Positions 44,904 through 62,666 of a stretch of 64,000 nt of DNA are shown one piece after another. Within the stretch, counting starts at the first letter, position 1; each line of letters begins with the position of its first letter. The stretch comes from Arthrobacter sp. TMP15. GTDB taxonomy: Bacteria; Actinomycetota; Actinomycetes; Actinomycetales; Micrococcaceae. The notes beneath the pieces were generated by a model. The model saw nothing but the letters and a program-made list of their open reading frames with translations. It did not search any database and was not told where the DNA came from. A program made the translations under genes and the position numbers. The stretch covers positions 992,001 to 1,056,000 of the forward strand of contig NZ_CP154262.1 of NCBI RefSeq assembly GCF_039529835.1, read 5' to 3'.

Positions 44904-47900
44904 ATGAATGAATCACATGCACGTCTCAGCAGTATGCGTTCCGGCGGTGCCACGCCTATGCTTGGGCGCTCAAGGTGGCTTGTGGTGGTGCTGGCCGCAT
45001 TGCTGGCGTGGGCCATGGTTGGTGTGAGTTTGATACTCGGTCCAATCTCGGCGGCACTGGCTGCGGATCCCTGCGGCGCCGGGAGTAACCCGATTTCTTG
45101 TGAGAACAGTAAACCCGGCACGGACCCGTCCGTTTGGGATATCTCTGGGGCGGGGGATGCAGACATTCAAGGGTTTTCCACCGACATTAGCGTCAATGTG
45201 GGCCAAACCATGGGCTTCAAGATTAAGACCAATGCCTCGAACTACAGCATCGATATTTACCGCACTGGTTGGTACCAAGGGCTAGGCGCTCGCAAGATCA
45301 CCACCATCAACCCCTCAGCCGCCCTCCCTCAGACCCAGCCGCAATGCCTTTCTGACGTGTCAACGCAACTCTACGACTGTGGAACCTGGGGGCTCTCGGC
45401 GTCGTGGGCGGTCCCGGCCAACGCCGTATCGGGTGTTTATATTGCCTTGTTAAAAAGGAAAGATAATGGAAACACCAGCCACATCACGTTCATTGTCCGG
45501 GATGATTCCAGCCATGCGAAGGTAGTCTTCCAAACCTCAGATCCAACCTGGCAGGCCTACAACACCTACGGCGGAGCGGACTTTTATCAGGGGGCATCCA
45601 TTGGCCGTGCGTTCAAGATCAGTTACAACCGTCCTGTTGTCACCCGTGGAGATGTTGACGGCCGGGATGCTTACTTCGCCAGTGAATACGCAATGGTGCG
45701 GTTCCTGGAACAAAACGGTTATGACACCACTTATATTGCCGGTGTTGATACGGACCGGCATGGCAGCCTGCTGACCAACCACAAAGTGTTCCTCTCAGTG
45801 GGCCATGACGAATACTGGTCCGGCGCGCAACGCGCCAACATCACGGCAGCGGCAAATGCGGGCGTGAACTTGCAGTTCCTCTCCGGCAATGACGATTATT
45901 GGAGGACGCGGTACGAACCCTCCGCCACGGATAACACCAGCTACCGCACCATCACCTCCTACAAAGAGACCTGGTCAAACGCCAAAATTGATCCAGCACA
46001 AGAGTGGACTGGAACGTGGCGGGACCCCCGGTTCGCTTCCCCTGCCAACGGCGGCGGCATGCCGGAAAATGCACTCAGCGGAACCATCTATATGTCCAAC
46101 TACACCGACCTTCCGGTGACAGTGTCCGCCGCTGAGGGGAAGACCCGGCTCTGGCGGAACACGGCACTGAAGTCGCTGGCCGCAGGAACCAAGGCCGCAC
46201 TAGCCCCGCACACGGTGGGCTATGAATCCAATGAAGACCTTGACAACGGCTTCAGGCCAGCAGGCCTGATCCGGCTCTCCACCACAGTTGGCAGCACACC
46301 CCAATACCTGCAGGACTACGGAAATGCTGTTCTGCCAGGAACCACTACCCACAACATCACCCTGTACAAGAACGCGGCCGGAGCTTTGATCTTCTCTGCC
46401 GGCAGCGTGCAATGGACCTGGGGACTGGACCAAACACACGACGGCGCAGGTGCTCCGGCAGATCCTCGAATGCGCCAGGCCCAGGTGAACCTTTTTGCGG
46501 ATATGGGTGCGCAGCCGGCAACCCTTGACCCCGCACTTGTGGCAGCAGCAGCCAGTACGGACACCACCGCTCCGGTGGTTGTTATCGCTAGCCCGGCCAA
46601 TGGTTCGGCAGTTATCAATGGCGCCAAGATGACGCTGAGCGGAACGGCCACGGATAGCGGCGGGGTAGTGGCCGGCGTCGAAGTTTCCACGGATGCGGGT
46701 GCCACTTGGCATCCCGCCAGCGGAACAAGCAACTGGACTTACAGCTACGTACAGCATGGAATCGGCACTCAAAATATCCTGGTACGCGGCATCGATGACA
46801 GTGCCAACTATCCCACCACGCCGAAAAAACTCACCTTGCAAGTCAACGGTCCGTACAGCGTTTTTGGCAATGAGGTGCCAAAGAACGCAGATTCAGGTGA
46901 TGCTGGGTCAACCGTTCTTGGATTGAGATTTAGCCCAACCCAAAACGGATTTATCTCAGGAGTGCGCTTTTATAAGAGTGCAGCCAACACAGGCACCCAC
47001 ACAGGTAGTCTGTGGAACTCCTCCGGAGCTGAGCTGGCGACGCTGATATTCGCCAATGAAAGCGCCAGCGGCTGGCAGAATGCCAAGTTTATTACCCCTG
47101 TGAGCGTCACGGCAGGGCAGAGTTATGTGATCTCCTACCAAGCTCCCAAGGGGCATTACTCCTACGCCACCGGCTACTGGGACTACAAGGGGATTACGGC
47201 TGCTCCGCTGGCAGCAGCGGGCGGGTTCGGCGCTGCACCATCCGGTGTTTATAACACCAACGGCAGCTTCCCCACAGACAGCTATGAGAATAGTAACTAC
47301 TTTGTGGATGCCATCTTTGAAACAACCGACACCTCCCCGTTGGTGGCTACGGGGCAGGTGCCGGTTGGTGGTGCTGGCAGTGTGGGTGTTTCTACTCCTG
47401 TCAGTGCTGTGTTGTCTAAGGATGTGACGGCGGGCAGTGTGGGGATCGTGGTGAAGACGGCGGCGGGGGTTTCGGTTGCTGGTTCCACCTTGTATAACGT
47501 GGCTACGCGGACGGCGGTGTTTACGCCGGCGGCTGCGTTGGCCAAGGGCACGGTGTACACGGCAACACTGAGTGCTGCTAGTGCTGGGGGTGGGGTTACT
47601 GCTGGTGCTGTGTGGTCGTTTACAACTGTGAAGCCGGATACGGTTGGCTGTCCGTGTGGTTTGTATCAGGACAGTGCTGTTCCTACTGTGTTATCGATTG
47701 CTGACGGGACGCCCTTGTCCTTGGGTGTGAAGTTCAGTGCGGCTTCTAATGGCACTGTCACTGGGGTGAAGTTCTACAAGGGGCCTGGGAATACGGGTAC
47801 CCATACCGGTTACTTGTATAAGGCAGATGGGACGTTGCTGGCTTCGGCGGTGTTTGCCGGTGAGTCCACTACTGGGTGGCAGAGCGTGATGTTTGCAACT

Positions 47901-49691
47901 CCTGTAGCGCTCACTGCTGGGACTGAGTATACGGCTGCGTATAGCAATCCGGTGGGTACGTATTCAGCGACACCGGGGGCGTATGGTGGGGACGTTAATG
48001 TTGGTCCACTGCATGTGCCTGCGGGTTCGGCGGTGTACGCCTATGGTTCCAATTATCCGGTGAACGGATCCTCTGCCAGCTACCTGGTTGACGTCATCTT
48101 CACACAACCTGCCATGCCGTTGGTGGCTACGGGGCAGGTGCCGGTTGGTGGTGCTGGCAGTGTGGGTGTTTCTACTCCTGTCAGTGCTGTGTTGTCTAAG
48201 GATGTGACGGCGGGCAGTGTGGGGATCGTGGTGAAGACGGCGGCGGGGGTTTCGGTTGCTGGTTCCACCTTGTATAACGTGGCTACGCGGACGGCGGTGT
48301 TTACGCCGGCGGCTGCGTTGGCCAAGGGCACGGTGTACACGGCAACACTGAGTGCTGCTAGTGCTGGGGGTGGGGTTACTGCTGGTGCTGTGTGGTCGTT
48401 TACAACTGTGAAGCCGGATACGGTTGGCTGTCCGTGTGGTTTGTATCAGGACAGTGCTGTTCCTACTGTGTTATCGATTGCTGACGGGACGCCCTTGTCC
48501 TTGGGTGTGAAGTTCAGTGCGGCTTCTAATGGCACTGTCACTGGGGTGAAGTTCTACAAGGGGCCTGGGAATACGGGTACCCATACCGGTTACTTGTATA
48601 AGGGAGATGGGACGTTGCTGGCTTCGGCGGTGTTTGCCGGTGAGTCCACTACTGGGTGGCAGAGCGTGATGTTTGCAACTCCTGTAGCGCTCACTGCTGG
48701 GACTGAGTATACGGCTGCGTATAGCAATCCGGTGGGTACGTATTCAGCGACACCGGGGGCGTATGGTGGGGACGTTAATGTTGGTCCACTGCATGTGCCT
48801 GCGGGTTCGGCGGTGTACGCCTATGGTTCCAATTATCCGGTGAACGGATCCTCTGCCAGCTACCTGGTTGACGTCATCTTCACGCCAGTAGCAGCACCCC
48901 TGACACTGCTCAGCCAGTCACCTGTCCCAGGGGCAAGTGATCAGGCCGTGGATGCGGTTGTGAAAGCAACGTTCTCGGCACCGCTGGCGGCGGGCTACAC
49001 GGGGAAGTTGAAAAACGGTGCCACGGTGTTGGCCAGCACCACGGCATTATCTGCGGATGGGAAAACACTGAGCGTGACGCCCGCAGCGGCGCTTCCGACG
49101 GGCGCCACCATTTCCGTGACACTGGGCCAGCTTGTGTCCGTCGAAGGTGCCGCACTGGCGGACGCCACATGGCAGTTTGGTACCGCAGATGGCTCGGCAA
49201 CACCAAGTAATTACTCCATGTTCGGTGCGCTTGTACCGGCCACGGCAGCCAACGCAGATGATCCAGCAGCCATTGAATTGGGTGTGGCGTTCACACCCTC
49301 CATAGCCGGGAGCGTAACCGCCATCCGGTTCTTCAAGGGTTCAGGCAACGTGGGCGCGCACACTGGCTCTATCTGGAGCGGGACAGGTGTCAGGCTGGCC
49401 ACTGTCCAGTTCACGTCTGAGACACCAACCGGCTGGCAGACCGCCACTCTAGCCACGCCTCTGGCGCTCACGGCTGGAACCACCTACACGGTCTCCTACT
49501 ATGCACCGAACGGGCGCTACTCATCCACGGGGGCATTCTTTGCGGCACCGTTCACTCAAGGTCCGTTATCCGTGGGCGCCGGCAGCAACGGCCGGTACTT
49601 TTACGGAACTGGTGGAGGCATGCCGGTCAACAGTTGGAACTCCAGCAACTACTTTGTTGATGTGGTGTTCTCTGTGCCGCCAGCACCCTAG
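44904..49691 (+). CDS. Giant secreted DUF4082 / Ig-like repeat protein
   Basis: A 1595-residue exported protein. It has a signal sequence (about residues 22-52), then a large domain like the C-terminal part of N,N-dimethylformamidase beta subunits (about 60-545; IDIYRTGWYQG, SVGHDEYWSGAQRANI, LSGNDDYW). An Ig-like domain follows (about 550-650), then a DUF4082 domain, two near-identical Big_5-like Ig plus DUF4082 units, another Ig-like segment and a last DUF4082 domain. Each DUF4082 ends with the pattern NSSNYFVDVVF. The layout suggests a wall or matrix enzyme or adhesin. ATG 44904 has only a weak site; ATG 44937 is possible. Confidence 0.8.
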   Translation: MNESHARLSSMRSGGATPMLGRSRWLVVVLAALLAWAMVGVSLILGPISAALAADPCGAGSNPISCENSKPGTDPSVWDISGAGDADIQGFSTDISVNVGQTMGFKIKTNASNYSIDIYRTGWYQGLGARKITTINPSAALPQTQPQCLSDVSTQLYDCGTWGLSASWAVPANAVSGVYIALLKRKDNGNTSHITFIVRDDSSHAKVVFQTSDPTWQAYNTYGGADFYQGASIGRAFKISYNRPVVTRGDVDGRDAYFASEYAMVRFLEQNGYDTTYIAGVDTDRHGSLLTNHKVFLSVGHDEYWSGAQRANITAAANAGVNLQFLSGNDDYWRTRYEPSATDNTSYRTITSYKETWSNAKIDPAQEWTGTWRDPRFASPANGGGMPENALSGTIYMSNYTDLPVTVSAAEGKTRLWRNTALKSLAAGTKAALAPHTVGYESNEDLDNGFRPAGLIRLSTTVGSTPQYLQDYGNAVLPGTTTHNITLYKNAAGALIFSAGSVQWTWGLDQTHDGAGAPADPRMRQAQVNLFADMGAQPATLDPALVAAAASTDTTAPVVVIASPANGSAVINGAKMTLSGTATDSGGVVAGVEVSTDAGATWHPASGTSNWTYSYVQHGIGTQNILVRGIDDSANYPTTPKKLTLQVNGPYSVFGNEVPKNADSGDAGSTVLGLRFSPTQNGFISGVRFYKSAANTGTHTGSLWNSSGAELATLIFANESASGWQNAKFITPVSVTAGQSYVISYQAPKGHYSYATGYWDYKGITAAPLAAAGGFGAAPSGVYNTNGSFPTDSYENSNYFVDAIFETTDTSPLVATGQVPVGGAGSVGVSTPVSAVLSKDVTAGSVGIVVKTAAGVSVAGSTLYNVATRTAVFTPAAALAKGTVYTATLSAASAGGGVTAGAVWSFTTVKPDTVGCPCGLYQDSAVPTVLSIADGTPLSLGVKFSAASNGTVTGVKFYKGPGNTGTHTGYLYKADGTLLASAVFAGESTTGWQSVMFATPVALTAGTEYTAAYSNPVGTYSATPGAYGGDVNVGPLHVPAGSAVYAYGSNYPVNGSSASYLVDVIFTQPAMPLVATGQVPVGGAGSVGVSTPVSAVLSKDVTAGSVGIVVKTAAGVSVAGSTLYNVATRTAVFTPAAALAKGTVYTATLSAASAGGGVTAGAVWSFTTVKPDTVGCPCGLYQDSAVPTVLSIADGTPLSLGVKFSAASNGTVTGVKFYKGPGNTGTHTGYLYKGDGTLLASAVFAGESTTGWQSVMFATPVALTAGTEYTAAYSNPVGTYSATPGAYGGDVNVGPLHVPAGSAVYAYGSNYPVNGSSASYLVDVIFTPVAAPLTLLSQSPVPGASDQAVDAVVKATFSAPLAAGYTGKLKNGATVLASTTALSADGKTLSVTPAAALPTGATISVTLGQLVSVEGAALADATWQFGTADGSATPSNYSMFGALVPATAANADDPAAIELGVAFTPSIAGSVTAIRFFKGSGNVGAHTGSIWSGTGVRLATVQFTSETPTGWQTATLATPLALTAGTTYTVSYYAPNGRYSSTGAFFAAPFTQGPLSVGAGSNGRYFYGTGGGMPVNSWNSSNYFVDVVFSVPPAP
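47337..48103 (+). repeat. 767-bp tandem repeat, copy 1
   Basis: This segment is repeated 780 bases downstream (48117-48883) with a single mismatch seen at 47824/48604 (C/G, Ala to Gly). It encodes one Ig-like plus DUF4082 unit. Codons here favour T and G endings (GTGTTGTCTAAG-like runs), unlike the C-rich flanks. Confidence 0.95.
48117..48883 (+). repeat. 767-bp tandem repeat, copy 2
   Basis: Second copy of the 47337-48103 segment, in frame, joined by a 13-base linker. The near identity over 767 bases implies a recent duplication or ongoing gene conversion. Confidence 0.95.
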
Positions 49692-53431: not shown

Positions 53432-53800
53432 TTAGGCTGCGTTAACGTAGCTCGAAGTCAGTTGGGCTGCAGTTAGATTCCCGCACTGTCGTAATACTCT
53501 GAGTTGTCTAGCGGCATTGACGTTGCAGCCTGACTCAAGAGTTCTGACAAGGTCACTGGCCAGCTCGCCCAACTGGGCGGCACCAACCATCATGCTGGAA
53601 CTGCGAAGGCTTAAGGCAGCGTCCATGGCGTTATCCAGGTGGCCAGCTTTGACGGCTTGGTGAATGCGGCGGAAACGCTCGGGCCACATGTCAATGAAGC
53701 GGCAGACGAAGCTGCGGCAAAGAGCCGTCTCACCGTTGAGCGATTCTTCTAGTGTGTGCAAAGTTTCGGTACAAACAAGAGGCATCATGGTGACAGTCAT
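53432..53800 (-). CDS. HPt-like protein without the phospho-accepting histidine
   Basis: A 122-residue alpha-helical protein with the pattern of histidine phosphotransfer domains: AALSLRSSSMMVGAAQLGELASDLVRTLESG. In true HPt domains the first residues read A-H-x-L-K-G-S-S; here Leu63 occupies the His position and Arg66 the Lys. I place the start at ATG 53800, which has GGGAG 6 bases upstream, not at 53842. It lies just downstream of a histidine kinase gene on the same strand, with CTTGAG repeats in its upstream region. It may bind kinase or regulator without phosphotransfer. Confidence 0.65.
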   Translation of the reverse strand: MTVTMMPLVCTETLHTLEESLNGETALCRSFVCRFIDMWPERFRRIHQAVKAGHLDNAMDAALSLRSSSMMVGAAQLGELASDLVRTLESGCNVNAARQLRVLRQCGNLTAAQLTSSYVNAA

Positions 53801-54009: not shown

Positions 54010-54026
54010 ACTTGAGTCAATCTTGA
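54010..54026. promoter_or_regulatory. CTTGAG-N5-CTTGAG direct repeat upstream of the HPt-like gene
   Basis: Two CTTGAG copies 11 bases apart (one helical turn) lie about 210 bases upstream of the HPt-like start, between it and the kinase gene end. The same spaced repeat occurs at 55935-55951. The 11-base period is typical of OmpR/PhoB-type regulator sites. Confidence 0.45.
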
Positions 54027-54050
54027 GCTTTTCATCAGGCCCGAAGTCTG

Positions 54051-55790
54051 CTATTCAGTGGACACTGGTCTGGCTCGCCCAGCGTCAGCCGCACTCCCTG
54101 GATTGATTCGTTCAAGGGCAGCTGTTTCATCCTTGGTGGCCAAACAACCGGGCAACATGAACCCAATAGTGCTCCCCACCCCGGGCTTACTGTGCAAGCT
54201 GATGGTCCCGCCATGCTTGGCAACAATGGTCCGTGAGATCATCAACCCCAATCCGATGCCCGGAATGGATCGCTGCATGGCGGACTTAGCGCGGAAGAAC
54301 TTAGTGAAAGCCTCTGCCTGCTCTGCACTATTCATGCCCATACCTGTGTCCTGAACCTCGCACCACAGATCCGCTCCGTGGGACCATGCCCGCACGGTGA
54401 CTGTTCCGCCGTCGGGGGAGTACTTGACGGCGTTCGAGACGAAGTTATCCAGCACCTGCCCAATTCGCCTGGCATCGACGAACGCTTGGAGAGGTGCCTC
54501 CACGGCGTTGACCAAGGTGACTTTATTGGCGGCGGCAGCGGGAGCCGCTGAACCCAAACTCTCCTCAATCAGCCGGGCAACATCTGCGCGACCTATTTGA
54601 AGGGTAACGGCATCCGCCGTGAGGAGATCCGCCACCAAAGCGTTCAGGCGTTCCACATTTCGTGCTGCGATACCCAAAAATCGTCGCGCAACGTCTGGAA
54701 GCTCGGGAGTGTCCTCTAACACCATTTCCAAATAGCCGTGAATCGAGGTTAGCGGGGTGCGGAATTCATGCGAGACATGCTCCACAAAGTCATTCTTACT
54801 CTCTAGTGCTGCCATCATCTTGGTGATGTCATGAAACACGATCACGGCGCCGTCGAAAGCTCCGGCCGCGTCATACATGGGCCGTGCAGCAGTGGAAACC
54901 GCGCGCTTGGTCTCACCGGTTCCCAACCACATTTGGTAATCAGTAAAGGTTTCGCCCTCTATAGCCCTACGGACCGGGCGGTCTTGGGCCGGCACCTCAG
55001 TGACCGTATCCGGCCCAAACAGCAAGAGATCCTTCTCCTGGGGGTCCGCGATGTTCTCTGGGAGTGCTAAAGAATGGAGAGCTGTTTGGGTATCATTCAT
55101 TAGGACATCGTGGCCGTCAGCGTCCACCACTACCAGTCCGACGGCGACCGTGCCTAGCACCGTTGACAACAACCGCTCCCGCTGCCTGCTCACTTCAAGT
55201 GCGGCCCTCAACTCCAGATCTTTGGCCTCCAAAGACTTGCGTTGCAGATTAACTCTTTTGGTCACTGCGATCACCATGATGGCGAAGGCCAGTATGACTA
55301 GAGGAAAAAGGACTGGCTTGACGAGCTGCTCCAGTGTGAAACCAGTCTGCGGACCGAAAACCGGAATCCAAACAATTAGTAAGGCTGCAAATACGCTGAC
55401 TACTACCGAGATGCGTTTAGCCAACCCTGAGGAAGCCAACCAAAAGACAGGGAAAAAGATGAGCAAGCCGATTGCTGACAAGAACTGAGGGTGGCCAAAC
55501 CGTAGGAGCCCAATCGCCAAGAAATCAAGATACGGGATTATCAAGAAGGCGCCTCGAGGTAGTTTGTCCCATGGCACGGCGAAGGCTGCCAGTAGTAACA
55601 GTGCATGCATTAAGAGGGAACTCATGAAGAGGGGTTCCCGAAACGACTGCGGATAGAACGCCATAGCCATGACTGCTGCAAAAACAACCAGGATCGACAG
55701 GGGCAGCTGTGTGAGGAAGGTCCTTCTCTGCAACGTACCCCTGGAGTTGAAATGACCGCCGGCACTATCCGGTGAAACTGTGGTTGGCAT
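54051..55790 (-). CDS. Membrane histidine kinase (first of two paralogues)
   Basis: The 579-residue kinase has six or so membrane helices (about 27-178), a coiled linker, a PAS-like domain (about 205-325), HisKA with the phospho-acceptor His341 in VSHEFRTPLTSIHGYLEM, and a HATPase domain (NFVSNAVKYSPDGG, DTGMGM, GIGLGLMISRTIVAKHGG). A close paralogue is at 59940-61640 with the same domain order. It is divergent from the first alternate-signal gene. The only response regulator in reach is at 61860-62666. Confidence 0.88.
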   Translation of the reverse strand: MPTTVSPDSAGGHFNSRGTLQRRTFLTQLPLSILVVFAAVMAMAFYPQSFREPLFMSSLLMHALLLLAAFAVPWDKLPRGAFLIIPYLDFLAIGLLRFGHPQFLSAIGLLIFFPVFWLASSGLAKRISVVVSVFAALLIVWIPVFGPQTGFTLEQLVKPVLFPLVILAFAIMVIAVTKRVNLQRKSLEAKDLELRAALEVSRQRERLLSTVLGTVAVGLVVVDADGHDVLMNDTQTALHSLALPENIADPQEKDLLLFGPDTVTEVPAQDRPVRRAIEGETFTDYQMWLGTGETKRAVSTAARPMYDAAGAFDGAVIVFHDITKMMAALESKNDFVEHVSHEFRTPLTSIHGYLEMVLEDTPELPDVARRFLGIAARNVERLNALVADLLTADAVTLQIGRADVARLIEESLGSAAPAAAANKVTLVNAVEAPLQAFVDARRIGQVLDNFVSNAVKYSPDGGTVTVRAWSHGADLWCEVQDTGMGMNSAEQAEAFTKFFRAKSAMQRSIPGIGLGLMISRTIVAKHGGTISLHSKPGVGSTIGFMLPGCLATKDETAALERINPGSAADAGRARPVSTE

Positions 55791-55921
55791 AACTACTTCG
55801 ATCCTTCAGGGTGGCAGTCGCAACGGGCGTTTGATATGCAGCAGATAACGATAGTCCCACACGGACCAAATAGCGCTGTTCTATGACTCGAGTTGCGCAG
55901 CCAAGACTTTTTTGGCTGAGA

Positions 55922-55951
55922 CTTGAGACTTTATCTTGAGGTGTTCTTGAG
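55922..55951. promoter_or_regulatory. Triple CTTGAG repeat in the kinase/matrix-gene divergent region
   Basis: CTTGAG occurs at 55922-55927, 55935-55940 and 55946-55951, the last two exactly 11 bases apart, with a fourth copy at 56018-56023. The site lies 140-170 bases upstream of the first alternate-signal gene and about as far from the divergent kinase gene. Confidence 0.5.
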
Positions 55952-56092
55952 TCTTTGGGAACGGGGGAAAATCTTAGGGCATTCTTGTTGGAATCTTCCG
56001 GGTTTTCAAGGCTGATTCTTGAGTTGGGAGCGGCATTGTTATACCCATCGGCAGGAAGACTTGCTGAGAAGAACTTGAACAAGGGGTCTCGC

Positions 56093-56683
56093 ATGAACAA
56101 GATGGTAAAAGGCGCAATTGCAACTGGCGTAGGCGTTATTCTGTTGGTAGGTGGCGGCGGAACACTGGCTACCTGGAACCAGGCGCAGGATGCTTCCATG
56201 GGTTCGGTTGTTTCCGGTGATTTGAACCTGGTAGCGGATGCCGGTGTTTGGAAGAACGCGGCCGGCACCACGATCGCCATCGGTTCGTATAAAGTAGTGC
56301 CGGGTGACACGCTCACTTACACTCAACCCCTGAACGTAACGTTGACGGGCGACTTGATGAAAGCCACACTGGTCACTAAAGGACTGCCGACCGGGGCTAA
56401 CAAAAACTTTGAAGACTCCAATGTTGCGGTCACAACTGTTTTCACTGATACAAGTGCAGCCAAGAAAGTATTGACTGGCGATCTGATTCCCGGAACCCTC
56501 GTTGCTGCAACTGTTCCTGTGACCACCCCCGTGTCAACGTTCGCTCGCAACGTAAACGCCACAACCACGTTCACGTTCAAAACCGACACGCAGAACCGCA
56601 GCTCAGTAAACAGCAAGTATGACTTCAACGCAGAAGCCTTCGGATATAAGCTGGTTCAGGTAGCACCGGCAAACGCCAACTAA
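56093..56683 (+). CDS. Alternate-signal exported protein (TasA/CalY-like), first copy
   Basis: A 196-residue protein with a basic N terminus and the alternate signal GAIATGVGVILLVGGGGTLATWN, as in proteins processed by SipW-type signal peptidases; the rest is a beta-rich extracellular domain with little Cys. ATG 56093, with AAGGGG upstream, is preferred over the open frame from 55955. Such proteins form fibres in Bacillus biofilms; here assembly is an inference. A SipW-like peptidase is two genes downstream. Confidence 0.8.
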   Translation: MNKMVKGAIATGVGVILLVGGGGTLATWNQAQDASMGSVVSGDLNLVADAGVWKNAAGTTIAIGSYKVVPGDTLTYTQPLNVTLTGDLMKATLVTKGLPTGANKNFEDSNVAVTTVFTDTSAAKKVLTGDLIPGTLVAATVPVTTPVSTFARNVNATTTFTFKTDTQNRSSVNSKYDFNAEAFGYKLVQVAPANAN

Positions 56684-56711
56684 CAGTCAGGCAATACCAG
56701 CGCTAGACCCC

Positions 56712-56742
56712 GGTGATGTGCTGGTTCCACCGGCACATCACC
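56712..56742 (+). promoter_or_regulatory. Intercistronic hairpin between the two matrix-protein genes
   Basis: GGTGATGTGC (56712-56721) and GCACATCACC (56733-56742) form a perfect 10-bp stem with an 11-base loop. With no T tail it is likely an mRNA-stabilising or partial-termination element that favours the first gene. Confidence 0.5.
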
Positions 56743-56762
56743 ACCCTTAGACGGAAGCGGCC

Positions 56763-57353
56763 ATGAAAACCACCCACGCGCTGAAAGCAACTGGCCTTGT
56801 GCTGATTGCAGTAGTGCTGGGAATGCTGACCGTTCAAGGTAGCTATGCACTCTGGAACAAGGTAGCAAATGCGAATGCCGGAAGTATTCAGGCCGCTAAT
56901 TTTCAAATTAGTTTGACCGATAGCGTGACTAGTACCGCTATGAACATGACGAGTGAAGCCGGAAACGCAGCAACCATGTCATTGAGCACCACTCCGTTGG
57001 GAACGGTCATACCTGGACAGAGCGCCTATGCCGGCGTAAAACTTGGCAATGAGAGCGATGCTGGTGGTGTCTTTACCGTTCGCGCAATTACCAGTGCACC
57101 TGTCATAGATGACGATTCGGGTTCTGCATTGGCGCAGTACCTGGGAACCAAAGTAGTTGCTGCAACTTCTCTTGACCAATGTAGCCAGCCATCGTTATAT
57201 TCGGCCGCTACCCCGGTGACGGCCACAATCGATATAACAAAGGGCAGCACAGGCGTGTTTTGTTTTCAGACGACACTCGCTGCAAACATGCCGGCAAGTC
57301 TCACGGGACAAAGCGCTGAAGTAGCCATCCCCATCGTCGTCAACCAACTCTAA
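56763..57353 (+). CDS. Alternate-signal exported protein (TasA/CalY-like), second copy
   Basis: This 196-residue protein has a signal-like N terminus (TGLVLIAVVLGMLTVQGSYALWN) and a mature part starting NAGSIQAANFQISLTDS, the AGxIxxGxxxLxxxD-like pattern of TasA/camelysin-type proteins. It ends AEVAIPIVVNQL. It is followed 11 bases later by the SipW-like peptidase gene, matching the tasA/sipW pairing of Bacillus. Confidence 0.8.
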   Translation: MKTTHALKATGLVLIAVVLGMLTVQGSYALWNKVANANAGSIQAANFQISLTDSVTSTAMNMTSEAGNAATMSLSTTPLGTVIPGQSAYAGVKLGNESDAGGVFTVRAITSAPVIDDDSGSALAQYLGTKVVAATSLDQCSQPSLYSAATPVTATIDITKGSTGVFCFQTTLAANMPASLTGQSAEVAIPIVVNQL

Positions 57354-57364
57354 GAGAGGCCGCC

Positions 57365-57976
57365 ATGTCTGTTGTCAACAGAAGCAAGACGCCAGTTGAG
57401 CGCAATGCGGCGCCGGCTGTTGCGGCCAGGCCTCTCGGCAATGCTTCACGGATGGTTGGACGGGCAGCAGCGTATATTCTCTTGCTTGCTGCGATTATGG
57501 CAGCCCTAGCAATGATCATTGTTCCGCTGGTCACGGGGTCACAAACTTATACAGTGTTGACGAATTCAATGGCGCCAAAATATGCGCCCGGAACTTTCTT
57601 AGTCGTGAAACCGGCCCCATTCGAGAATCTTCAAGTGGGTGACATAATCACATACCAGATCGAGTCGGGCAAAGCTGATGTGATAACTCACCGTATCTCC
57701 TCCGTAGGTGTGGGACAAGATGGTGCTAGGGCACTAACCACCAAGGGAGATAACAACTCGCTTGAGGACACCGAAGCCGTGCAGGCTATCCAAGTCAAGG
57801 GAAAACTCTTCTACGCCATACCCTATGTTGGATTTGTTGCCAATGCAGTTGGTCAAGATCGCCACATTATTTTGCCGATTATAGCGGTTGGGCTCATCGC
57901 TTTCGGTGCGCTAACCATGGTTAAAGGAACGGTAGAGAAGAAGCGCGCACGTCCAAAAGGGAGGCGCAGCAAGTGA
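57365..57976 (+). CDS. sipW: SipW-type signal peptidase I
   Basis: A 203-residue signal peptidase of the ER/SipW class: a long N-terminal tail, a membrane helix (about 34-57), catalytic Ser68 in VLTNSMAPKYAPG, His109 in VITHRIS (in place of the Lys of ordinary peptidases), Asp129 in TKGDNN, and a second membrane helix near the C terminus (about 160-182). It probably matures the three alternate-signal proteins of this operon. It overlaps the next gene by 4 bases. Confidence 0.88.
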   Translation: MSVVNRSKTPVERNAAPAVAARPLGNASRMVGRAAAYILLLAAIMAALAMIIVPLVTGSQTYTVLTNSMAPKYAPGTFLVVKPAPFENLQVGDIITYQIESGKADVITHRISSVGVGQDGARALTTKGDNNSLEDTEAVQAIQVKGKLFYAIPYVGFVANAVGQDRHIILPIIAVGLIAFGALTMVKGTVEKKRARPKGRRSK

Positions 57977-58878
57977 GGCAATCGAACAGATCTGGTTTGC
58001 CACGCTTGAGCTTGCTCCCTGGGGTGATAACCGTATTAGCGTCACTGATGTTGGGAGTGTTCCTTGCTACCCCTGCTCATGCTGCCCAAGACACAGACGC
58101 CATGCTTGAGCTCAGCCGGGACGGCGTCGCGTACAAACTCGGAAGCTTAACGAGCGTTTTTGCTGACAGCCACGGGTTCGTGCCTGGAGAATCAAGAAAA
58201 GCAAAGGTGTGGGTGCATAACGTCAGCTCAGAAGCTGCATATTTTTCTCTTGCTGTTGCCAATGTTGGCAGGACCAGCAGTGCAATATTGCCGCAGTACC
58301 TGGGTCTGCAGGCTGTCGCAACCAAGGGACTTGCAGATGCTCCAAGACTTCCCGGTCCTGGACACTGCACCGTGGTACTGGAAAAGTGGCCACTAAAAGC
58401 TGGTGAAGCAATGCCAATGAATCTTGATTTGCAGTTGGCGTTGCAGGCACCCAATGCCACCCGAAACCAAGTATCTGACTTTGAACTGCTCTTCGTTATG
58501 CAGGGTGTTGACGGAGGTACGCTTGTGTCTCCGTGCGCTGCAGTCTCGCCCAACACTCCGGCCGGTACCTCGGTTGGGCGTGCTCCGATGACTGGAGGAA
58601 CGGCGACCAGCCCAGAAAAGATATCGACGTTGCAATCCAATGGCAACAACGATGCGGGTACTCAGTACCAGAATTTCGGTGGCGCGAATGTGCAGGGAGC
58701 CGTAGAGGGCGAAGAAAGGTCAGTTTTTTCGTTCTCTTGGTTGAACCGGTGGTCCGGGAATGGCTTAATGCACAGTAATGTTGCAGCTGTCACCCGCACG
58801 CCCTGGCCTTGGCTATTAGCGCTAAGCGCAGTCATGTACACGCTGATCTCTACGAGGAGACGGAAGAAAACTCGATGA
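57973..58878 (+). CDS. Exported, C-terminally anchored protein of the SipW operon
   Basis: The 301-residue protein has a classic signal peptide (about 12-36, ending TPAHAA), a beta-rich extracellular part, a Gly/Asn/Ser-rich stretch (about 195-235), and a C-terminal helix (WPWLLALSAVMYTLI) with a basic tail (STRRRKKTR), so it is fixed to the membrane. There is no LPxTG motif. It starts at GTG 57973, overlapping sipW, and overlaps the next gene. It may anchor fibres made of the exported subunits; I do not recognise a named family. Confidence 0.7.
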   Translation: MRQSNRSGLPRLSLLPGVITVLASLMLGVFLATPAHAAQDTDAMLELSRDGVAYKLGSLTSVFADSHGFVPGESRKAKVWVHNVSSEAAYFSLAVANVGRTSSAILPQYLGLQAVATKGLADAPRLPGPGHCTVVLEKWPLKAGEAMPMNLDLQLALQAPNATRNQVSDFELLFVMQGVDGGTLVSPCAAVSPNTPAGTSVGRAPMTGGTATSPEKISTLQSNGNNDAGTQYQNFGGANVQGAVEGEERSVFSFSWLNRWSGNGLMHSNVAAVTRTPWPWLLALSAVMYTLISTRRRKKTR

Positions 58879-59768
58879 GCCCTCTGGAACCACAGAAGAA
58901 CTCTCAAAAGTCACGAAAATTTTCGCTATGCCGAGCTGGCAGCATTCGGGACATCCCTGGATTCACCACGGCTGCCGTTGCGTTCGTTATGGTTGTGCTT
59001 TTGGGTGGAGGTGGCGTAGCGGTTGCTAAATGGAGTCAAACCGCCCAGGTGGGCTACACCATTACAGCAGGGGCAGCTAAAACTACGGGTACGCAAAATA
59101 TTGTGCGCAATCCTATTGTTGCAATGCGCCCGAACGGGATCATAACAAATTTCTTTACATGCAATTTAGTCAATAGCGCTGATAGCAAGATCATTACTCC
59201 TAGGTTTATCTGGCGGAATAACGGGAGCACTGGTACATCACATTATATTGTTACTCTTAGATCCGTTGCTGGGACTATAGTTTCCCAAACCCAGGTCATA
59301 CCGCATTCTGGATCCCAGAATAGTGAAGCCGTTTTTAGTGTGGGCGTCGCCGCGGCTCAGGAGGACTATATCCTTCGTATCCAGCCTATGAACGGGGACG
59401 TAGCGGGAGACGCTTCGTATCGTACCGTAAAGCTCAGAGGCCAACTAAGCCCAACATGTGGGTACGCGACAGCACAGGGCCCATCGCCGCTTGGTCCGTT
59501 TAATGTTAGTACCAGTTCAAAGAACAGAGTGCTGAGCCTTAGCTGGTCAGGAAGTAGCGCAACATCTTACAAAGTGAGTATTAGGGCACACAACTCTTCG
59601 TACGGAGCGGAGTTCACCACATCATCACTCCGCGCTGATGTGGCATTCCCTGATGGGGTGCCGTCTGATGGTTATACGTTGCGAATCCAGCCGATGGATG
59701 GGAACGTAGCTGGAGACCCCGTCTATAAGACAATCGAATACTGGTGGCCCGCTTTATGGGTGAATTAG
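58875..59768 (+). CDS. Alternate-signal exported protein, third member
   Basis: ATG 58875, overlapping the preceding stop (ATGA), opens a 297-residue protein. An N-terminal tail is followed by the alternate-signal helix (TAAVAFVMVVLLGGGGVAVAKWSQ), close in form to the first member's. The mature part contains two similar FN3-like halves, each ending YxLRIQPMxGxVAGDxxY. It is AT-richer than the core genes. It is the last gene of the operon. Confidence 0.75.
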   Translation: MSPLEPQKNSQKSRKFSLCRAGSIRDIPGFTTAAVAFVMVVLLGGGGVAVAKWSQTAQVGYTITAGAAKTTGTQNIVRNPIVAMRPNGIITNFFTCNLVNSADSKIITPRFIWRNNGSTGTSHYIVTLRSVAGTIVSQTQVIPHSGSQNSEAVFSVGVAAAQEDYILRIQPMNGDVAGDASYRTVKLRGQLSPTCGYATAQGPSPLGPFNVSTSSKNRVLSLSWSGSSATSYKVSIRAHNSSYGAEFTTSSLRADVAFPDGVPSDGYTLRIQPMDGNVAGDPVYKTIEYWWPALWVN

Positions 59769-59939
59769 ATAAACTAACGAACTATATGTCACGATCCTTT
59801 TGCGGCGCCATCGGACAGTGCTGACAGTTCAGTTTGTTTAGCATAAGGCGAGAATCTGGTTCTCGGCGCTATTTCCCGCGCAGATAAGCGAAGGCATGCT
59901 AGCAGCAGTCCCAAATACTTTAGTAAGTTACTGGTGGCG
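59769..59939. other. Gap between convergent genes
   Basis: A 171-base convergent gap holds a small hairpin (CGAGAA-TCTGG-TTCTCG at about 59848-59864) that may end one or both transcripts. Nothing else is evident. Confidence 0.4.
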
Positions 59940-61640
59940 TCATACTTCTGCAGGGGTCGAGTACGTTGTAACTGTCAGTTGTGAATTACTTGGCCTCACA
60001 CAGGCGGGAATGACGAAGCTCATAGTAGTTCCCACACCGTGCTGACTCTCTAGATTCAACGTACCGTCGTGACTTTCAATGATGGTTTTGCATATCATCA
60101 GGCCTAAGCCAATGCCGGGAATTCCAAGGTCAACAGCTGTACCGGCCCTGAAGAACTTCTGGAAGACGCCCGCCTGTTCGGTTGCGCTCATCCCGAGGCC
60201 TGTGTCCTGGACGGAACAGTGCAAATCAGTACCTTCAGCCCAGGCACGGACCGTGAGAGTGCCGCCGTCGGGGGAGTATTTCACGGCATTGGACAACAGA
60301 TTATCCAGCACTTGGCCGATGCGTACCGGATCAATCATGGCAAAGAGCGGCTCTTCAGATTGGCAGTCAAGCACCACTGCATTGACTGCCGCGGCCGGAG
60401 ATGCAGTAGCTATGCTGTCCGCCAAAAGCCGTGCCACATCGCTTTGTTTGCGTCTCACGGTAATTGACGTGGTGGATAATAAATCTGTCACTAATCCACT
60501 GAGACGTTCGGCGTTCCGATCAGCGATGCTCAAATATTTTCTTACGTGCCCAGGGTGCAGCCCCGGGGTTTCCAACGCCAGCTCCAAATACGACTGGATA
60601 GCCGTCAACGGTGTCCGGAACTCATGAGAGACGTTGGCGAGAAAATCATCCTTAGCCGTGATGGCGTTAAACATCTCGGTCACGTCATGATAGGCAATCA
60701 CGGCGCCATCACGGGCGCCATCTTCATCGAGGATCACTCTAGCGGTGGTGGATAAACCACGAGCGCGTTCGCCGGCACCGATCCAGATTTGGTAGTTCGT
60801 GAATGATTCACCGGAGATAGCCCGCTGTACAGGTCGAGCCTCCGGGGGAAGTGGTTCTCGGTTGGCGTTGAACAGTAGTAAGTCGCCCTCTTGTGGAATA
60901 GCGACCCCTGATGGCTTCCCGAACTCATGCAGTGCCATCTGTGTGGAGTTAACGAGCCGATCGTTGCCGTGTCCGTCAACCACCACCACACCAACACCCA
61001 CGGTATCAAGGATAGTTTCCATGAGGCGTTCGCTGTGCTGGCTTTGTTCCAAAGCAGCTCGAAGTAACCGGTCCTTAGATTCCAGCTGGGTTCTATGGTC
61101 ATCCATGCTGGTTGTGAGCACCACCGAGGCTATAGAGAAGGCGAGCATCATAAATGGAAACAACAAGGGCTTGACAAGAGTATCCACGCTCAGAGGCACA
61201 TCACTTTGAAAAACGGGGATCCAGACAATGACCCAACTAACTAGCGTGCTGATAATGACGGCTGTTCTGGGTGCAAAGCCTGAGGAACAGATCCAAAAAA
61301 TGGGGAAAAGAGCCAAAATTCCTGTTGATGACAGAAATTCTTGGGCACCATCCCTGAAAAGCACCACCGCAATAAATCCCACGTATGGGATCACCAACGA
61401 GGCGACTGGAGGAATTTTGTTCCAGGGAACCACAATGCAAGCCAGGAGAAGCAGCGCGTTGAGTGTGCAACCTGCGATGAGGGTTGTCTCTCGTAAAAAT
61501 TCAGGGTTCAGCACGGCAATAAGGGCAGCGGCCAAAGTCATAGTCAGGAACAGCGGCAGCTGAGATAAGATAATCCGTGTTCTTAGGGATCGCTCATGAA
61601 GGTGCCGGCCAATGAACTGATTTTTCGGTGTTTCAGACAA
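59940..61640 (-). CDS. Membrane histidine kinase (second paralogue)
   Basis: This kinase mirrors the 54051-55790 protein: six membrane helices, a PAS-like domain, HisKA with the acceptor His in VSHEFRTPLTAIQSYLELAL, and HATPase motifs NLLSNAVKYSPDGG, DTGLGM, GIGLGLMICKTIIESHDG. The frame is open to a TTG at 61694, but TTG 61640 (preceded by GGAAG) gives an N terminus of the same length as the paralogue (566 residues). It is divergent from the response regulator gene, its likely partner. Confidence 0.85.
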   Translation of the reverse strand: MSETPKNQFIGRHLHERSLRTRIILSQLPLFLTMTLAAALIAVLNPEFLRETTLIAGCTLNALLLLACIVVPWNKIPPVASLVIPYVGFIAVVLFRDGAQEFLSSTGILALFPIFWICSSGFAPRTAVIISTLVSWVIVWIPVFQSDVPLSVDTLVKPLLFPFMMLAFSIASVVLTTSMDDHRTQLESKDRLLRAALEQSQHSERLMETILDTVGVGVVVVDGHGNDRLVNSTQMALHEFGKPSGVAIPQEGDLLLFNANREPLPPEARPVQRAISGESFTNYQIWIGAGERARGLSTTARVILDEDGARDGAVIAYHDVTEMFNAITAKDDFLANVSHEFRTPLTAIQSYLELALETPGLHPGHVRKYLSIADRNAERLSGLVTDLLSTTSITVRRKQSDVARLLADSIATASPAAAVNAVVLDCQSEEPLFAMIDPVRIGQVLDNLLSNAVKYSPDGGTLTVRAWAEGTDLHCSVQDTGLGMSATEQAGVFQKFFRAGTAVDLGIPGIGLGLMICKTIIESHDGTLNLESQHGVGTTMSFVIPACVRPSNSQLTVTTYSTPAEV

Positions 61641-61786
61641 GATAACTTCCGTTGCGCAATTCTTTGAAGAAAGCCGTTGCACTAGGCTCCACAAAGCATG
61701 AGTGCGGCCTGGTGCAAATAATTGATCGCAAGTCAGGAAAAATTACAGTCCGCCGCTATTGATGATGCCATACTGGAGGATACTAA

Positions 61787-61800
61787 AGGCTCGCGAGCCT
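61787..61800. promoter_or_regulatory. 14-bp perfect palindrome in the kinase/regulator divergent region
   Basis: AGGCTCGCGAGCCT lies 60 bases upstream of the response regulator start and between two divergent regulatory genes, a placement that fits an operator. No named site is recognised. Confidence 0.35.
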
Positions 61801-61859
61801 CAAAGCTGCTGTAACAACTTGGTCTTTTTAACGGTCTTAGTACTATTAGTGAGGGAAAA

Positions 61860-62666
61860 ATGGACAATTCTCGTGTTGCGGTCGTCGTGGAAGATGACGA
61901 GGATATTCGGGAACTTGTCAGTGTGATCCTGAACCAGTCGGGTTTTGTTGTTCACACCGCCAGCAATGGAGCCGACGGCGTGGCCGCTATTAGGACGCAC
62001 AGGCCAGCAATCGTCACCCTTGATCTTGGTCTTCCTGACATTGACGGGTTTGAGGTAGCGCGGCGAGTCCGGCTCTTCAGCGATGCATACATCATCATGC
62101 TTACCGGACGGGCAGATGAGATGGACACTTTATTGGGGCTGGAAACTGGTGCCGACGATTACCTGACAAAACCCTTCCGTCCTAGAGAACTCCGTGCCCG
62201 CATCAGTGCAATGATGCGCCGGCCACGAGTATCCAGCGTAGAGAATGTGACGGCGCAGGTAGTTACTCCAGCGATCGTCAGTGATATGGAGAGTTCCGGC
62301 TCTAAGGATCCAGCCTTAGCCGTGACGGCGACTGCTTTAGCTACTGAACCGCGCACTCTCAACGGACTGGTTTTTGATTGTGGTGACAGGACCGCTGAAG
62401 TGGACGGCAAAGAACTGGAATTAACGCGCACGGAATTCGATCTGCTTGCAGCGCTCTTCGACAGCGGTAAGCAAGTACGCACAAAGTCGGACTTGGTGCG
62501 CAGACTTCGAGGGGAAGAATACGATGTTGGTTCTTTCATCAGCGACTCGGATGAGCGGACGGTGGAAGTTCACATGGCTAACTTGCGTCGCAAACTGGGG
62601 GATAACCCACGTGACCCGCGCTGGATCAAAACCGTGCGCGGCGTGGGGTACCGACTGGTGGTTTAG
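61860..62666 (+). CDS. OmpR-type response regulator
   Basis: The 268-residue protein has a receiver domain with acidic pocket EDDED, phospho-acceptor Asp55 in TLDLGLPD and Lys104 in YLTKPF, and a C-terminal winged helix (LELTRTEFDLLAAL...VEVHMANLRRKLGDNP...IKTVRGVGYRL). The linker between them (about 125-165) is longer than usual. GTGAGGG lies upstream of ATG 61860. Its position beside one kinase and 6 kb from the other suggests it serves both and controls the SipW operon. Confidence 0.92.
   Translation: MDNSRVAVVVEDDEDIRELVSVILNQSGFVVHTASNGADGVAAIRTHRPAIVTLDLGLPDIDGFEVARRVRLFSDAYIIMLTGRADEMDTLLGLETGADDYLTKPFRPRELRARISAMMRRPRVSSVENVTAQVVTPAIVSDMESSGSKDPALAVTATALATEPRTLNGLVFDCGDRTAEVDGKELELTRTEFDLLAALFDSGKQVRTKSDLVRRLRGEEYDVGSFISDSDERTVEVHMANLRRKLGDNPRDPRWIKTVRGVGYRLVV

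Follow-up and report, generated by a model that had tools for sequence, protein, structure and literature searches.

A histidine-less HPt family linked to an OmpR-type regulator and a SipW-dependent matrix operon in Arthrobacter: a candidate three-component switch

We analyzed a 64,000-nucleotide stretch of the Arthrobacter sp. TMP15 genome (contig NZ_CP154262.1, positions 992,001 to 1,056,000 of the forward strand; hereafter the window), in which a SipW-dependent matrix operon (TasL1-TasL2-SipW-anchor-TasL3, positions 56093 to 59768) is accompanied by two histidine kinases (HK1 and HK2), one OmpR-type response regulator and a histidine phosphotransfer (HPt) protein lacking the histidine that normally carries the phosphate. 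The first-pass annotation of this stretch had read the two kinases, the single regulator and the His-less HPt as an integrating switch. These components are indeed present and lend that reading partial support; the stronger finding is a family of His-less HPt proteins that recurs with the regulator, with a conserved direct-repeat box and in fusions to surface enzymes. We propose that these genes constitute a three-component switch for the SipW-dependent surface-matrix operon, in which the regulator would control both the operon and its own phosphate-dead partner, and we give this reading a probability of about 0.5.

The Phosphorylatable Histidine Is Missing Throughout the HPt Family

The HPt gene of the window (53432 to 53800, minus strand) encodes a protein of 122 amino acids, termed here the pseudo-HPt, that matches Pfam Hpt with 29.0 bits (cut-off 24.6). 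It has the HPt helix-bundle fold, an assignment that is secure, and its closest solved structure is HptB, which acts in an orphan-HPt phosphorelay. In a profile alignment the active His of HptB falls on Leu63, confirming the loss of the histidine reported by the first-pass annotation. That annotation had placed the HPt between 54010 and 62666; the gene is real and sits outside this interval, the start of which coincides with the onset of a regulatory repeat at 54011.

The histidine is missing in all 108 distinct domains of the family, 96 of which carry Leu at the site, and no His was found in 30 further relatives, one of them already among the 108. The neighboring Ser64 is present in 107 of 108 domains, and an M-x-G motif is kept across genera (M in 107, G in all 108). 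For the kinases and regulators of the same loci, in which some genomes are counted twice, the search pattern detected the H-box His in 110 of 120 kinases and left ten unmatched, and 118 of 122 regulators have the receiver Asp. Both kinases of the window read SHEFRTPLT, including the H-box His, and the regulator reads DLGLPDIDG, including the phospho-Asp, as expected of a two-component system.

As a control, a class-wide HPt profile search was performed, in which 41 of 296 genomes were matched; at most 15 candidates were scored per genome, so that the counts are lower bounds. Among the 30 loci read at the site, 16 carried His, 11 Leu or Gly, and three Glu or Ser. The His-bearing matches were mostly hybrid kinases with scores of 32 to 68 bits, while ten of the 11 Leu or Gly loci were the ten top-scoring ones (71 to 143 bits), and nine of the 11 had an OmpR-type regulator match in the short locus. 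Stand-alone HPts of 127 to 214 amino acids that do bear His and also have the M-L-G-A motif were observed in another actinobacterial family (L287, L290, and L291; 54 to 66 bits) and may be surviving relatives of the form from which the His-less family descended.

The HPt Gene Accompanies the Regulator Beside Different Surface Machines

To describe conservation we used the best 80 of 302 confirmed SipW loci, with the HPt sought within 10 kb on either side; L144, which is nearly identical to the window, is counted among these 80 and in the comparison of box and HPt given below, and is left out of the 80-locus box count, where the window's own locus (L031) stands. TasL1, TasL2, and SipW occur together in 74 of the 80 loci, and the HPt in 45. 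Taken singly, TasL1 was found in 79 loci, TasL2 in 74, TasL3 in 68, the regulator in 42, strong kinase matches in 37, and a gene related to the anchor in 32; there were no kinases in 43 loci, one in 23, two in 13, and three in a single locus. No HPt match was found in the 22 SipW loci of other types that were examined. Within the genus, the operon with an adjacent HPt recurs in 14 of 21 other genomes searched, each time with the regulator (as a fragment only in L036); a kinase beside the operon is fully matched in 12 of them, is present as fragments only in L036 and is absent from L035. The co-occurrence exceeds what chance would give, and the expectation of the first-pass annotation that the gene set co-occurs in relatives is borne out. 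In L036 (genome G011) the kinase and regulator fragments stand beside an intact TasL/SipW operon and HPt gene, a natural loss of the signaling pair. A record titled Sporosarcina beigongshangi (L150) contains an Arthrobacter-type locus matching a genome of the same genus and represents a mislabeled record or contamination.

An HPt within 10 kb is lacking in 35 SipW loci; the genomes of 25 of these were searched further, and every one encodes one to nine HPt-family matches elsewhere. Thirty HPt loci read away from SipW in HPt-unlinked genomes contained a regulator match in 26 cases and Tad genes alongside in 19. A narrower HPt alignment matches 66 of 148 genomes of the whole family.

The association was further analyzed in 61 HPt-centered loci, comprising 57 places from a longer list of HPt matches, three of the TMP15 genome, and L065, which was found via SipW. 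In 45 of them the HPt gene and the regulator gene converge within a distance of 300 bp and in one more they are divergent (46 in total); 54 have the regulator somewhere in the locus. A kinase lies within 3 kb of the HPt in 44 loci, and within 300 bp in only 12. The cargo beside this trio of kinase, regulator, and HPt is SipW in 23 loci (the window included, and L054 on a weak 31-bit match); 13 loci have Tad-pilus genes there and five a GT2 glycosyltransferase, with no cargo assigned in the remaining 20. One GT2 glycosyltransferase is also within reach of the window itself. In a representative Tad locus, RcpC/CpaB, ParA-like, T2SSE, and T2SSF proteins were confirmed by Pfam. The presence of the same trio beside different surface machines suggests a shared type of switch. 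Among the 13 Tad-linked loci, L105, L122, and L227 have the trio flanked by Tad-pilus genes on one side and by the rplQ-rpoA region on the other (the names rplQ and rpoA being assigned by eye), which hints at a constant chromosomal position.

A Direct-Repeat Box Lies Upstream of the Matrix Operon and the HPt Gene

Inspection of the window by eye first revealed an 11-bp direct repeat, the box CTTGAG-N5-CTTGAG, which was then tested elsewhere. One copy (54011 to 54027, plus strand) is located 211 bp upstream of the HPt start, while the second (55935 to 55951, plus strand) precedes TasL1 by 141 bp and the divergent HK1 by 145 bp. OmpR/PhoB-type regulators bind 11-bp direct repeats of this kind, which makes both copies candidate sites for the regulator. 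These are the only two exact copies in the 3.7 Mb genome, where the reversed pattern used as a control is not found at all. Across 58 genomes, TMP15 included, 23 exact copies stand against 12 of the reversed pattern, and 12 of the 15 exact copies in genomes of the same genus are in the matrix locus, two of them being the window's own.

In the 80-locus count (L031 and L145 to L223, 1.55 Mb), 47 of 57 copies with at most one mismatch, including the two of the window, fall within the 38.7 kb (2.5% of the sequence) upstream of TasL1 or the HPt, as do 20 of the 24 exact copies. Mononucleotide shuffles of 40 of these loci gave two matches compared to 32 in the real sequences. Where the HPt is linked, the box precedes TasL1 in 32 of 45 loci; where it is not, in 7 of 29 (odds ratio 7.7, p 1e-4, the loci not being independent). 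Exact copies were also found in three HPt loci away from SipW (L325, L329, and L330). We consider it probable that the regulator binds the box. Some Arthrobacter and Pseudarthrobacter loci that lack a local HPt (L174, L177, L183, L189, L190, L202, L205, and L209) have boxes on the minus strand shortly downstream of TasL3, at about 11.4 to 12.6 kb.

HPt Domains Are Fused to Surface Enzymes

Three genomes, all of one genus, carry SipW and HPt as a single open frame, and the two are same-strand neighbors or overlap in L065, L136, L140, L142, L230, and L281. A single GT2-HPt frame is present in TMP15 and in L128, as determined with Pfam, the Hpt part scoring below the Pfam cut-off and being found by the family profile; three more such cases were recognized by length and similarity. 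The TMP15 gene (L055:4069-7990, C1:1059069-1062990), 3 kb beyond the window end, encodes a GT2 glycosyltransferase ending in a His-less HPt (Pfam Hpt 18.1 bits, below the cut-off; family profile 133 bits). It is divergent from a regulator frame of 151 amino acids, receiver only by its length, and from a third kinase of the HK1/HK2 family. At this length the frame cannot accommodate a DNA-binding domain, and it is difficult to see why a receiver-only regulator would stand next to an HPt-tailed enzyme if the two proteins did not make contact. The fusions as a whole link the HPt to output enzymes.

Another His-less HPt is encoded on the second contig of TMP15 (112 kb; L054, C2:22001-42000), beside a protein of 852 amino acids with a signal-peptidase-like start and repeats; this locus, in which the SipW match scores 31 bits, also contains alternate-signal-like, ice-binding-type-looking and sortase-like proteins, every assignment except those of the HPt and the SipW match being made by eye.

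Two Sister Kinases Flank the Operon With One Regulator

HK1 (54051 to 55790, minus strand) is a membrane histidine kinase of the PAS-HisKA-HATPase type with HisKA, HATPase_c, and PAS_4 all above the cut-off. Its paralog HK2 (59940 to 61694, minus strand; TTG start uncertain) matches HisKA and HATPase_c above the cut-off and PAS_4 just below it, and the two are 50% identical. The regulator (61860 to 62666, plus strand; Response_reg 94.5 bits, Trans_reg_C 79.7 bits) is divergent from HK2. The sister kinases on either side of the operon and the OmpR-type regulator had thus been correctly identified in the first-pass annotation. A tree built from 71 kinase domains places this clade's HK1 and HK2 in one well-supported group and the two kinases of the A. 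gandavensis/yangruifuii group (gene order HK-RR-HK-HPt, RR denoting the response regulator) in another. Judging from this one tree, the two-kinase arrangement seems to have evolved on at least two occasions.

In the TMP15 genome the regulator and HK1 each match eight loci at E <= 1e-10. By position, every one of the eight regulator matches has an adjacent kinase; in one case, in L233, this is a weak match of 53 bits. Among the eight kinase matches, HK1 alone lacks an adjacent regulator. The pairing of the kinases with distant regulators, named beforehand as a result that would speak against the integrating switch, was considered for HK1 and rejected, as no free partner is found among the eight regulator matches at this threshold, less similar regulators lying outside the search. 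A phosphorelay through the HPt was likewise rejected. No Response_reg match was found in HK1 or HK2, so there is no hybrid kinase to feed the HPt, and since the HPt lacks His and the kinases lack a receiver domain, a His-Asp-His-Asp chain via HK1 and HK2 is impossible.

Proposed Mechanism and Alternative Explanations

Starting from the observed gene content, HPt fold, loss of the His, HPt-regulator linkage, box location, and fusions, we infer a mechanism that adds binding of the box, binding of the partner, and the sign of its effect. HK2, together with the duplicated HK1 in this clade, would pass signals to the one OmpR-type regulator, which in its phosphorylated form would bind the CTTGAG-N5-CTTGAG repeats and set the expression of the matrix operon and the HPt gene. 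The pseudo-HPt, unable to carry phosphate on the usual residue, would dock on the receiver domain of the regulator as HPts do and, being made under the regulator's control, may act as a feedback brake or tether that either occupies the receiver and damps or insulates the response or carries the receiver to a surface enzyme. On balance we lean toward the pseudo-HPt binding the regulator. Occupying the receiver would be its simplest role, because the fold is kept and expression is apparently tied to the same regulator, while carrying the receiver to a surface enzyme is suggested by the fusions. By analogy with plant AHP6 braking is likelier than tethering, and the idea of an inhibitory effect is put forward as a tentative one.

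More broadly, and again only tentatively, the phosphate-dead HPt could be a portable receiver-docking module by which a phosphorylated receiver would both turn genes on and physically gate surface-building enzymes across Actinobacteria. Such a module would cover the signal peptidase, the glycosyltransferase, and perhaps the Tad pilus machinery, with one regulator and one or two kinases, and would constitute a previously undescribed class of bacterial signaling.

Several observations weigh against the three-component switch. Seven of the 61 HPt loci have no regulator in the stretch examined, and the window departs from the usual order in that about 8 kb separate the HPt from the regulator and the HPt adjoins HK1. 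In the class-wide search, His-bearing matches at 68.3 and 66.1 bits beat one His-less match at 58.7 bits, so that the scores do not separate the groups cleanly. The Gly at H+4 is present in 0 of 108 and 0 of 30 domains of the family sets, but it is also missing in 9 of the 16 His-bearing relatives, and its absence is therefore no independent sign of lost phosphotransfer. Several family members are below the Pfam Hpt cut-off (18.1, 15.2, and 14.9 bits), and L065 has no match. Since the box was chosen by eye in the window before the tests and the loci are related, the p-values are overstated. With one mismatch allowed, the TMP15 genome contains 13 sites versus 15 in the reversed control, and thus only exact copies are informative there. 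At one mismatch, 13 of the 45 HPt-linked loci lack a box before TasL1, and 10 of the 57 box copies are outside both promoters, 8 of them just downstream of TasL3.

Alternatively, the pseudo-HPt might mainly be a docking tail through which the receiver gates the signal peptidase or glycosyltransferase directly, so that control would be post-translational as well as transcriptional. The single SipW-HPt frames, the six loci with adjacent or overlapping SipW and HPt genes, and the GT2-HPt frames, with a neighboring regulator in TMP15 too short for a DNA-binding domain, all argue for this; but the HPt is free-standing, and too small for an enzyme, in the window and most relatives, the SipW fusions are confined to a single genus and the interaction is putative, and we regard this explanation as rather unlikely. 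It is clearly less probable still that the pseudo-HPt binds the kinases instead of the regulator, inhibiting or scaffolding their dimerization domains. The window HPt gene does lie 250 bp downstream of HK1 on the same strand, and a kinase adjoins the HPt in L149, L169, and L188; across the 61 loci, however, the regulator is within 300 bp of the HPt in 46 and a kinase in 12, and 10 of the 16 loci without a strong kinase match still keep the regulator.

Two further explanations appear very improbable. Phosphate could still be relayed through another residue, for which the near-invariant Ser64 would be a candidate, yet ordinary HPts often have Ser there too (class-wide matches reading AHSLKG), and His-less HPt domains of ChpA are described as unphosphorylated in vitro in a portion of PMC10542144. 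The arrangement could also be one of ordinary neighbors, in which a two-component system and a SipW operon, both of common types, happen to adjoin and the HPt is decaying and functionless. Two-component systems are frequent and 35 of the 80 SipW loci have no HPt within 10 kb; decay, however, hardly fits the conserved Leu (96 of 108) and M-x-G motif (M in 107, G in 108), the regulator linkage and the conserved box, and the family is still encoded in all 25 unlinked genomes searched. If the three-component switch is correct, a single design would serve surface structures of several kinds in bacteria of soil and cold habitats, and the two exact boxes and the free-standing partner of 122 amino acids make it easy to test.

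Relation to Known Systems

Plant AHP6 is an HPt without the phospho-His that lowers phosphorelay output, and pseudo-HPts act as brakes in plant hormone signaling, according to sections of PMC6518804. The Arthrobacter HPt likewise lacks this residue, but the change is His to Asn in AHP6 and His to Leu here, nothing points to shared ancestry beyond the fold, and no hybrid kinase or His-bearing HPt is present at the locus. In bacteria, HPt domains of CheA/ChpA without the conserved His, whose function is not established in the part of PMC10542144 concerned, are extra domains inside CheA, whereas those described here are stand-alone or enzyme-fused and usually beside an OmpR-type regulator. ChpT is presented as an orphan-HPt phosphorelay protein in an excerpt of PMC12471899; HptB and ChpT are free HPt proteins as well, but the Arthrobacter HPt has no His, and HK1 and HK2 have no receiver domain. 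A phosphorelay census, as summarized in parts of PMC4558063, dropped hypothetical and partial proteins without His and reported HPts in only 14.49% of actinobacterial species, so a His-less family could easily have been passed over. The open full-text literature yielded no account of this operon in Arthrobacter and, among the papers listed, no actinobacterial SipW/TasA operon tied to a two-component system, subscription papers being largely outside the search. No bacterial stand-alone pseudo-HPt appeared among the top-ranked open full-text papers, where bacterial His-less HPt domains were met only as CheA extras.

The Matrix Operon and Neighboring Genes

All named window genes are open frames of the named kinds. 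TasL1 (56093 to 56683, plus strand), an alternate-signal exported protein, matches TIGR04089 with 114.6 bits (cut-off 60) and TIGR04088 with 23.8 bits (cut-off 19); its structure model is a beta-sandwich (pLDDT 77.6), and it is likely the main matrix subunit. TasL2 (56763 to 57353, plus strand) is an alternate-signal-like exported protein whose N-terminus is homologous to that of TasL1, with 47 residues shared (hhalign probability 94.4, E 8.9e-8), and TasL3 (58875 to 59768, plus strand) is a further one with a weak fn3 match; both are below the TIGR04088 cut-off of 19 (15.1 and 14.1 bits, respectively). The SipW-type signal peptidase (57365 to 57976, plus strand) matches TIGR02228 with 89.1 bits (cut-off 51.85) and remains below the cut-off of the Bacillus SipW equivalog NF046067 (74.9 bits versus 190); its Ser68 and His109 are invariant among 14 aligned sequences. 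The fifth gene (57973 to 58878, plus strand) encodes an exported protein with a C-terminal membrane anchor, its topology assigned by eye and with no family match. The operon genes probably export surface fibers.

The description as one overlapping operon is correct in gene content and for the 4-bp overlaps of SipW with the anchor gene and of the latter with TasL3, while TasL1 and TasL2 are separated by 79 bp and TasL2 and SipW by 11 bp. The TasL1-TasL2 gap contains a perfect 10-bp hairpin without a T-run (56712 to 56742, plus strand), a possible stoichiometry element. Stems of at least 8 bp were found in 42 of 65 such gaps compared to 8 of 400 random 75-bp segments, and this conserved hairpin may set subunit ratios. 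The matrix operon tapA-sipW-tasA of Bacillus subtilis is governed by SinR/SinI. The Arthrobacter operon differs from it in encoding three alternate-signal-like proteins together with one that is membrane-anchored, and in having a two-component system with a pseudo-HPt on its flanks.

TMP15 has one more SipW locus, of a different type (L032, C1:3380501-3400000), which encodes TasL1-like and anchor-like proteins, with no HPt, regulator or kinase match nearby. Elsewhere in the window (15770 to 36232), about 20 kb from the matrix operon, two LuxR-type ATPase regulators of 908 to 909 amino acids stand ahead of a polysaccharide cluster with a sugar transferase, two aminotransferases, a flippase, a glycosyltransferase, and a Wzy-like protein. 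A protein of 1595 amino acids (44904 to 49691) combines four DUF4082 stretches with a dimethylformamidase-like domain and bacterial Ig domains.

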